Source: Thermodesulfobacterium sp. (GTDB lineage: Bacteria > Desulfobacterota > Thermodesulfobacteria > Thermodesulfobacteriales > Thermodesulfobacteriaceae). Taken from it: a DNA stretch of 64,000 bases. A program made the translations under genes and the position numbers. Location: assembly GCA_017656385.1 (NCBI GenBank), contig JACDNX010000001.1, positions 1 to 64,000 of the forward strand. The letters are read 5' to 3'. The notes below the pieces were generated by a model. It was not told the origin of the DNA. It was given only the letters and a program-made list of their open reading frames with translations, and ran no database searches. This document shows, one piece after another, positions 17,723 through 21,522 of this stretch; the first letter of the stretch is position 1; the number at the start of each line of letters is the position of its first letter.

Positions 17723-20347
17723 ATGGATTATTCTCAAAAGAGTATAAAAGAAGTTTTAGAACTTTTAAAAACCTCTATTAATGGACTTTCTGAGAAAGAA
17801 GCTAAAAGGAGATTAGAGCTTTATGGAAAGAATATTTTAGAAAGTAAAAAGAAAAAAACCGCTTTTCAAATTCTCTTTTCTCAATTTAAGGACTTTCTCA
17901 TTTTTATTCTCATAGTTGCAGCTGTGATTTCAGGTTTTGTGGGAGAGTTGTTAGATACAATTACCATAATAGTAATTCTTTTCATAAACGCTTTAATTGG
18001 ATTTGTTCAAGAATATAGAGCAGAAAAAGCTATGGAAGCTCTATCTAAAATGGCTTCTCCCTATGCTGTAGTAATAAGGGAAAATAAAGCAAAAAAAATA
18101 TTAGCAGAAGAACTTGTCCCAGGAGACATAGTTTTACTGGAAGCAGGTGATATCGTTCCAGCAGATATTAGGCTTTTAGAGGCGTATCAACTAAAACTGG
18201 ATGAATCCCCTCTTACTGGAGAATCAGTTTCTGTTTTAAAACATACCGAATCTATTTTAGAAAAAAGCGTATTCATTTCGGAAAAGAAAAATATGGTTTT
18301 TAAGGGAACACTTGTTACTAATGGAAGAGGAAAAGGAGTTGTTGTTGCTACAGGAATGAATACAGAGCTTGGAAAAATTGCAAAGATGGTTCAGGAAGGA
18401 GAAACAAAAACTCCACTTCAGAAAAGGCTTGCTGATTTTGGTAAAAAGCTTGGCATAGCAACTATTGTTATCTGTTTTGTTATTTTTACTCTTGGTATTT
18501 TAAGAGGAGAAGAACCTTTGATAATGCTTCTTACAGCAGTTGCTTTAGCAGTAGCTGCTGTTCCTGAAGCTTTACCAGCTGTGGTTACCATAACCCTTGC
18601 TTTTGGTGCAAGGAAAATGGTCAACCTAAACGCCCTTGTGAGAAACTTACCTGCTGTGGAAACCCTTGGTTCTGTAACCTATATCTGCACAGATAAAACA
18701 GGCACCTTAACCCAGAACAAAATGACTGTAAGAAGACTATTTTCATTTGACAAAAACTCAGAGCCTTTTTTCTTGTGTATGGCTTTGAATAATGATGTAA
18801 AGATAACAGAAGAAAATAAAATTACAGGAGACCCTACAGAAATTGCCATTTATGAATTTGCTTTAAATAAAGGATTTAACAAATTAGAACTTCAAAAGAA
18901 GTTTCCCCGAGTATTTGAAATCCCCTTTGATCCAAAAAGAAAATGTATGACCACAATTCACAAGAAAGAAAACAGCTACTTAGTTTTTACTAAGGGGGCT
19001 TTGGAAGTTATTCTTGAAAAATCAAGTTCAATTTTGATTGATGGGAAAGTTGAACCAATTACAGAAAAAATGAGGAAAGAACTTTCAGAAAAAGGGGAAG
19101 AATTTGCAAAGAAAGGAATGAGGCTTTTAGCCTTCTCTTATAAAGAAATGAAAGATCTTTCCGATTCTGAAAAATTTGAAAAAGATCTGGTATTTCTTGG
19201 TTTTTGTGGAATGATTGATCCTCCAAGAGAGGAGGTTAAATCTGCTATAGCTCTTTGCAAATCTGCTGGAATAAAGGTGGTTATGATAACAGGAGATCAT
19301 CCTGTAACAGCTTATGCTATTGCTAAAGAGCTTGAAATCGTTGAAAGAAATGAACCTATTAATGAAGTAGCTATAACTGGAAAAGAATTGGAGGAGCTTA
19401 CTTTAAAAGAGTTTGAAAAAAAAGTAGAAAAAATAAAGGTTTATGCAAGAACTTCTCCTGAACAGAAGTTAAAAATTGTAAAAGCTTTGCAGGATAAAGG
19501 ACAGTTTGTTGCTATGACAGGAGATGGGGTAAATGATGCACCAGCTTTAAAAAAAGCAGATATAGGAATTGCTATGGGAAGTGGAACAGAAGTTTCCAAA
19601 GAAGCTTCAGACTTAATTCTTCTTGATGATAATTTTACAACCATAGTAAAATCTGTAAAAGAAGGAAGAAAAATCTATGACAACATAAGAAAATTTGTAA
19701 AATATACTATGACAAGCAATTCAGGAGAAATCTGGACTGTGGGTTTGGCTCCATTCTTAGGTCTACCCCTACCTCTTTTACCAGTCCACATTCTTTGGAT
19801 TAATCTTATTACTGATGGGCTTCCAGGGATAGCTTTATCAGGAGAGCCTGCTGAAAAGGATGTAATGCAAAGACCTCCAAGACATCCTAAGGAAAACATT
19901 TTTGCTCATGGACTTGGTATTCATATTATCTGGGTGGGATTGCTAATGGGTGCGGTTTCTCTTTTTACTCAAGCTTTAGCTCTTAAACTTAATATGCACT
20001 GGCAAACCATGGTCTTTTCAGTATTATGTTTAAGCCAGTTAGGGCATGTGCTTGCTATAAGGTCTGAAAAGGAGTCTCTTTTTAAACTTGGACTTTTTTC
20101 TAATAAAGTATTATTTTTTTCAGTAATTTTTAGTGTATTTTTACAGCTCACTATAATATATTGCCCCATTTTTAATAAATTCTTTCACACACAGCCCTTG
20201 TCTTTTAAAGAATTAATTATTACTTTTGGTCTTTCTTCCATTGTTTTTATAGTGGTAGAAATTGAAAAATTTATAAAAAGGAGGTTTTTCTTATCTTCTG
20301 CAAAAGGTTATGAGCAAGTCTTAAAGGTTCAGGAATACGGTAGATAG
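17723..20347 (+). CDS. Calcium-type P-type ATPase (P2A-like)
   Basis: The 874-residue pump has the phosphorylation motif DKTGTLT at D324, the TGES actuator motif (LTGESVSV), the nucleotide-binding KGA segment, and the hinge [17 protein letters not shown] near 598-615. Ten membrane helices are expected. Ion-site motifs PEALPAVV in helix 4 and [12 protein letters not shown] in helix 6 resemble Ca pumps of the SERCA/PMR1 group, so Ca (or Mn) export is likely, not proven. It starts [15 protein letters not shown], a standard N-terminal domain. The last 77 bases overlap convergent nfi. Confidence 0.92.
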
Positions 20348-20927
20348 AGGTTTTTAAAACGAGTTTAATAGCTGTTTTTAGACCTATTTTATGTCCTATA
20401 GATACATAGATTGGTTTTACTTTGTCCTTTGTTCTTAATACCACACCTACAACTTCATTGTTATAAATTAAATAAGAATAACTTCCGCGCTTTTCAGATA
20501 AAGGCATGTGGTTTCCACAAAGTTTTTTCTTAGCAACACCTACAGTTACAGCACCTGTTTCAACTCCAAAGTGAGAGGCAATTCCACAACCCCTCGGATG
20601 AGAAATTCCCTGCCCATCTATAAAAATGACATCTGGTTTAATTTCAAGCAATTTATAAAGTTTTAACATTATAGGAAGTTCTCTAAAGGCAAGGAAAGTA
20701 GGAATATAAGGAAAGTTTACCATACCTTCTATAATTTTTTGATAAACTGGTCTTAGTGTTTCTAAGTTAACAACTACTATACATACCCATGCTATGGTAG
20801 GATTTTCTTTTGGACTTCTAAAGGTTACATCAATTCCTCCGACAGTTTCAATTTTTCTTAAAACATCCCTTTTTATAATCCTTTTAGCACAATCTGACTG
20901 TATTTTCTCAAGTTCAGGTAAATTCAT
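20271..20927 (-). CDS. nfi: Endonuclease V (deoxyinosine 3' endonuclease)
   Basis: The 218-residue protein keeps the family's metal-site residues: D33 in GGIDVTF, E83 in FRELP and D104 in FIDGQG, followed by [12 protein letters not shown]. It nicks DNA (and often RNA) one base 3' of inosine, repairing deaminated adenine, which matters at high temperature. Its start codon is 16 bases from the divergent methyltransferase start, with no Shine-Dalgarno sequence. A TAAAAT element eight bases before the ATG suggests a leaderless message. The 3' end overlaps the ATPase gene. Confidence 0.95.
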
Positions 20928-20935
20928 GGTATAAT
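20927..20935 (+). promoter_or_regulatory. Extended -10 element placing the start near the methyltransferase ATG
   Basis: TGGTATAAT at 20927-20935 is an extended -10 with a perfect hexamer. The last base of the hexamer is eight bases before the ATG at 20944, so transcription should begin on or one to two bases before the start codon. The TG overlaps the divergent nfi start codon. Confidence 0.6.
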
Positions 20936-20943
20936 ATTTTAAA

Positions 20944-21522
20944 ATGGTTTTAGAAAAACATAAACATCATCATGCAGGAAAGTCAAGTAGAGCTATTATT
21001 TCAGCTTCTGAGGTATTTGACCTGCTAAACCTTCCTCAAGGCATTACTTTTCTTGATGCAGGATGTGGAGATGGCTATTTTTCTATTGAGGCTGCTTTAA
21101 AACTTGGATTAAAATCCATAATAATAGCAATAGACATTCATAAAGAATCCTTGGAAAAATTAAAACAAGAAGTAAAGAAAAGAAAATTATCAAACATTGA
21201 AATTATTGAAGCAGACATAACTAAAAAGCTCCCTTTGAAGGATAAAAGTATAGATGTTTACTTTGTTTCAAATGTTTTACACGGATTTGATGAAAAAGAA
21301 AAGGAAGAATTAGTAAAAGAAGTAAAGAGACTTCTTAAAAAAGATGGAAAATTTATAGTTATAGAATTTAAAAAAGAACCTACACCTGTTGGTCCACCTT
21401 TAGAAATAAGAATATCAGAAGAAGAATTAAAAAAGTTTTTAGAAAATTTTGGTTTTCAATTTGAAAAATCTTGGGAAGTAAGTCCTTATAATTATTTAAG
21501 TATTTTCAGATTTATGGAATAG
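20944..21522 (+). CDS. Class I SAM-dependent methyltransferase
   Basis: The 192-residue protein has the SAM-binding motif [11 protein letters not shown] at about 38-47, an acidic motif II (IAIDIHKES) and motif IV region [18 protein letters not shown], as in UbiE/Methyltransf_11 type enzymes. The N-terminal sequence [10 protein letters not shown] is histidine-rich, perhaps metal-binding. The substrate is unknown: small molecules or arsenite-type targets are possible. No ribosome-binding site is present; leaderless translation is inferred. Its end overlaps the convergent MBL gene by 11 bases. Confidence 0.85.

Follow-up and report, generated by a model that had tools for sequence, protein, structure and literature searches.

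Bidirectional promoters are common in bacteria. Those of E. coli involve 19% of the RNAs detected, with 18 bp as the commonest spacing, and steric exclusion of polymerases has been stated for such promoters (PMC12825309); by definition, their two start sites lie 7-25 bp apart (PMC10268837). Leaderless genes are found in many bacterial phyla, and their published signature is a TANNNT element some 12 bp ahead of the start (PMC3160421). In the literature consulted, no account was found of two leaderless genes with a gap as short as that considered here, and none on leaderless genes in Thermodesulfobacterium itself.

The locus is located in the first 64,000 nucleotides of contig JACDNX010000001.1 of Thermodesulfobacterium sp. 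(GCA_017656385.1); this whole stretch is called the window. The organism belongs to a genus of thermophilic sulfate reducers; judged by nfi, its nearest named relatives are records of Thermodesulfobacterium. The source genome is 1.67 Mb in size with 33% G+C (224 kb sampled). A preliminary description of the window had pointed to two divergent genes, nfi on the minus strand and a methyltransferase gene on the plus strand, with 16 bases between their start codons and no ribosome-binding site for either. Both points are borne out by the present analysis. The gap at 20928-20943, GGTATAATATTTTAAA, is bounded by CAT at 20925-20927 (the nfi ATG on the minus strand) and by ATG at 20944-20946. The features of the locus are as follows.

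20271 to 20927, minus strand: nfi, endonuclease V, 218 aa (Pfam PF04493, 235 bits; NCBIfam deoxyribonuclease V).
20927 to 20928, plus strand: TG that completes the extended -10; its T pairs with the A of the nfi ATG, and G20928 is conserved.
20928 to 20943, no strand: 16-bp intergenic gap, proposed bidirectional promoter core.
20930 to 20935, plus strand: -10 box TATAAT for the methyltransferase gene, 8 nt before its ATG; with the preceding TGG it forms an extended -10 (TGnTATAAT), kept in all four genomes with the 16-bp gap.
20936 to 20941, minus strand (read 20941 to 20936): TAAAAT, the proposed -10 box of nfi, 8 nt from the nfi ATG and unchanged across the same four genomes.
20944 to 21522, plus strand: class I SAM-dependent methyltransferase of unassigned substrate, 192 aa (Pfam PF13847/PF08241).
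20957 to 20986, minus strand (read 20986 to 20957): TTGACT-N18-TATGTT, a promoter-like site within the methyltransferase gene that could serve nfi instead; 9/12 matches, predicted leader of about 20-25 nt, no Shine-Dalgarno site.

The start of nfi is supported by the PF04493 match, which spans the whole domain (positions 3-197 of 198), and by a protein alignment that runs from residue 1 along the N-terminal portion of 4xpu, an endonuclease V chain of solved structure. For the methyltransferase, none of the 25 top-ranked NCBIfam models reached its own cut-off. Its start is supported by an in-frame TAA within the gap (20932-20934) and by an N-terminus of 12 residues that is conserved among relatives. 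No alternative in-frame start codon was found near the proposed start of either gene, and no Shine-Dalgarno-like run was seen upstream of either start on either strand. The methyltransferase gene lies between a metallo-beta-lactamase-fold gene and nfi. At the other end of nfi, its 3' end overlaps that of a P-type ATPase gene on the plus strand by 77 bp (window 20271-20347).

The gap has a nearly symmetric layout, in which the two -10 boxes abut at 20935/20936 and each of them is 2 bp from the opposite ATG. The preliminary description had the two genes share an overlapping TATAAT core; this has to be corrected to two adjacent hexamers. Its placing of the predicted transcription starts on or next to the ATG codons agrees with the present prediction. 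By the usual 7-nt rule from -10 box to start, transcription is predicted to begin near 20942 on the plus strand and near 20929 on the minus strand, with leaders of about 2 nt for both genes, or 0 nt if initiation takes place at the A of the ATG. The separation of the two start sites predicted from the -10 positions is 13-17 bp. Matches to a -35 element are poor on both sides, the best being 2-4 of 6. An extended -10 can partly compensate for a poor -35 in sigma-70 promoters, so the deficiency may be partly offset on the methyltransferase side. A second hexamer on the minus strand, TATTAT, 3 nt before the nfi ATG, was rejected as a -10 box, since it is too close and implies a start inside the coding sequence. 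Both genes carry the signature of leaderless (TA-led) genes, a TANNNT-like box at a distance of about 6-9 nt from the start and no Shine-Dalgarno site: in four genomes TATAAT ends 8 nt before the ATG of the methyltransferase and TAAAAT ends 8 nt before that of nfi, with no Shine-Dalgarno site for either gene in the window.

Two boxes at 6-9 nt from their starts occur by chance in 3.1% of shuffles of the same 16 letters and in 0.8% of real noncoding 16-mers from the same genome. By themselves the boxes are suggestive and are compatible with chance in AT-rich DNA; it is the conservation of the gap that makes chance unlikely.

The survey of the same gap in related genomes, which had been proposed as a check, found it in three further Thermodesulfobacterium genomes (G012, G005 and G010), where 15 of the 16 bases are identical and the one substitution is G/A at 20929. 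A search of 60 related genomes with up to two mismatches gave no match beyond these four loci, and the reversed sequence used as a control gave none either. In the same four genomes 27 of the 62 fourfold-degenerate sites of nfi are invariant. Against this baseline the probability of at least 15/16 identical bases is about 4e-5 to 2e-4; it is weaker, 0.006-0.04, with more conserved local baselines, of which the 5' end of the methyltransferase gene (10/16 fourfold sites) gives P 0.006-0.02. In the 347 surrounding bases compared, no more than four patches reach this level of conservation (at least 15/16): the gap itself and three that are coding.

The background of leaderless genes was surveyed in sampled stretches of three genomes (624 kb) with a simple gene caller and Shine-Dalgarno rule, so that the numbers are approximate. 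To count as a -10 box, a hexamer had to match TATAAT at 5/6 positions or more and to lie 6-9 nt upstream of the start. A Shine-Dalgarno-like site precedes 43% of first-like genes in these stretches. The -10 box was found in 22/144 first-like genes lacking a Shine-Dalgarno site, as against 7/178 operon-internal genes lacking one (Fisher P 6e-4) and 1/110 first-like genes possessing one (P 3e-5). The excess of these 22 boxes over letter shuffles (13.2 +/- 3.4, P 0.0075) is moderate. Given this enrichment among first genes without a Shine-Dalgarno site, leaderless genes appear to be ordinary in these genomes. The same 624 kb contain 62 divergent gene pairs. In fifteen of them one or both starts have a box at a distance of 6-9 nt, but both do so only in the nfi/methyltransferase pair. 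The layout, which had been called compact and unusual, is very compact, and its proposed components, bidirectional promoters and leaderless genes, are of known kinds.

The methyltransferase gene has been lost repeatedly in the genus. It is intact in the source genome (G000), G012 and G011, reduced to a remnant of 57 codons in G005 and G010, present as degenerate pieces in G004, and absent from G002, whose nfi comes right after the lactamase-fold gene in the same orientation. The remnants in G005 and G010 have one common deletion junction and therefore probably stem from a single shared event. Between these two genomes the remnants differ to a similar extent at the three codon positions (4, 4 and 7 of 57), and the nfi genes at 14, 16 and 41 of 215; the pattern in the remnant, in small numbers, is as expected if it were under little coding selection. 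The gap beside the remnant is identical in the two genomes. This would fit selection on an nfi promoter and would also fit limited time, and nfi by itself may account for some of the conservation; for the G005-G010 pair taken alone, 0/16 changes in the gap is not strongly unexpected.

Arrangements of the leaderless type are also found outside the 16-bp gap. In G011, where the gap is 74 bp, the methyltransferase gene is preceded by TTGACG-N17-TAAACT-N7-GTG and is predicted to be leaderless, and on a second contig of this genome TAAACT-N7-ATG stands before a methyltransferase gene; in front of nfi, G011 carries AGGAG at 11 nt from the ATG. The nfi gene of G004 starts at the GTG of TAAAAT-N6-GTG and has no intact methyltransferase gene alongside. 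A leaderless-type box for nfi is not clear in G009 or G002. The comparison suggests recurrent leaderless arrangements for each of the two genes, with the methyltransferase as the clearer case.

The best reading of these observations, to which we assign a probability of roughly 0.58, is that the 16-bp gap acts as a compact bidirectional promoter of the sigma-70 type yielding two leaderless or nearly leaderless mRNAs. On the plus strand, the extended -10 (TGGTATAAT) would start the methyltransferase mRNA at about 20942-20944, and on the minus strand TAAAAT would start the nfi mRNA at about 20927-20929, in both cases 0-2 nt before the AUG. Both mRNAs would then be translated from a 5'-terminal AUG without a Shine-Dalgarno site. 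Since the -10 boxes abut, RNA polymerase would open the site in one direction at a time, and the two genes may compete for initiation. The case is stronger for the methyltransferase side than for the nfi side, there being no convincing alternative promoter in view for the methyltransferase gene. More tentatively, and with the odds somewhat against it, the start codon of nfi could double as part of the extended -10 of its neighbor, each start codon would be locked by the opposite promoter, and the choice of promoter would couple a DNA repair gene to a methyltransferase gene through polymerase competition, all within a 16-bp gap with two leaderless mRNAs.

The preliminary description had already proposed two leaderless genes back to back. 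This is upheld as the best reading by the conservation of the gap, the relatives and the genome-level leaderless signal; its weaker part is nfi, which could use a less well conserved promoter inside the methyltransferase gene. In that case the methyltransferase alone would be leaderless from the gap, nfi would be transcribed from TTGACT-N18-TATGTT with a start near 20950, and the minus-strand TAAAAT would be incidental. This site has a better score than the gap box for nfi in G000, and the segment that contains it has been kept in G005 and G010 though the remaining part of the methyltransferase gene is deleted. However, the deletion in these two genomes probably occurred only once, and about three sites of this quality would turn up by chance in the 901 bases that were scanned. 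In the relatives the score drops to 8/12 (G012 and G005) or to less than 8/12 (G010), whereas the gap keeps an invariant TAAAAT. The longer leader, in which a Shine-Dalgarno site is absent, would bring little gain in translation. We consider this alternative fairly unlikely.

It had also been stated that two ordinary leaders would fit such a gap only if each promoter was located inside the other gene. This is true but not decisive: in G010 a divergent pair separated by 13 bp carries a Shine-Dalgarno site on each strand, which means that crossed promoters apparently exist in the genus. In G005 another pair overlaps head-to-head by 12 bp. If both genes at the present locus had ordinary leaders from such crossed promoters, the gap boxes would be a by-product of AT-rich sequence. 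However, a Shine-Dalgarno site is absent on either side of the gap, the gap is more conserved than synonymous sites, and the methyltransferase gene of G011 has a near-ideal leaderless promoter. A leadered methyltransferase mRNA from a plus-strand promoter inside nfi was tried and rejected, since no promoter-like site of at least 9/12 is present within nfi near its start. We consider ordinary leaders for both genes improbable. Still less probable is that the gap promotes one gene only, the second being weakly transcribed from it or not at all, for example with a methyltransferase kept by inertia. The repeated loss and decay of that gene in the genus would agree with this, but the gene is intact in three genomes, and none of the four genomes with the 16-bp gap has lost TGnTATAAT.

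The two pairs from G010 and G005 have features of their own. The former, CAT-AATGGAGGCTCCT-ATG (L064:1549-1567; G010 C1:521549-521567), has both of its Shine-Dalgarno sequences inside one near-palindrome; its plus-strand gene encodes a BON-domain protein, and a copy of the sequence with one mismatch is found in G003 C8. The latter (L056:1525-1536) consists of an L,D-transpeptidase gene on the minus strand and a gene on the plus strand for a fusion of cysteine synthase and cysteinyl-tRNA synthetase, and the overlap lies at their start codons. The fusion protein (L056:1525-3858) has 778 aa, with a PALP (cysteine synthase-like) domain and a class I cysteinyl-tRNA synthetase catalytic domain.

If the bidirectional leaderless reading is true, the locus would approach the lower size limit of a divergent regulatory region, with 16 bp, no leader on either side, and a start codon forming part of the promoter of the neighboring gene. 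It would provide a natural test, in a deep-branching thermophile, of how polymerase is divided at bidirectional promoters and of leaderless translation. The relatives in which most of one gene is deleted and the gap is kept would provide a natural control.

Comparison with the described systems places the locus as follows. The bacterial bidirectional promoters of Warman, Grainger and colleagues (PMC12825309, PMC10268837) have a similar, nearly symmetric AT-rich -10 region between divergent genes, a weak or absent -35, and a spacing range of 7-25 bp that includes the 13-17 bp predicted here. However, the -10 hexamers abut in the present gap, while they coincide in the commonest published configuration, and here the entire promoter would fit in the space between two start codons, which predicts a leaderless product on each side. 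The TA-led genes of Zheng et al. 2011 (PMC3160421) share the TATAAT-like box at some 6-9 nt from the ATG and the lack of a Shine-Dalgarno site; the difference is that two predicted genes of this type stand here back to back on a common 16-bp gap. The cvkR-cas12k pair of the Anabaena CAST (PMC9938897) also consists of adjacent divergent genes with one spacer and leaderless mRNAs on both sides (predicted in our case), but it has 82 nt between the start codons and a MerR-type repressor, compared with 16 nt and no known regulator. The divergent promoters of the EcoRV restriction-modification system (PMC5333194) likewise have overlapping RNA polymerase sites; they are regulated by a C protein, whereas at the present locus nothing indicates that the methyltransferase acts on DNA as a partner of endonuclease V, itself a repair enzyme. 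Since bidirectional promoters, leaderless genes and one divergent leaderless pair with an 82-nt spacer are already known, a bidirectional promoter with a leaderless pair inside a 16-bp gap is an extreme form of these systems and not a new kind.
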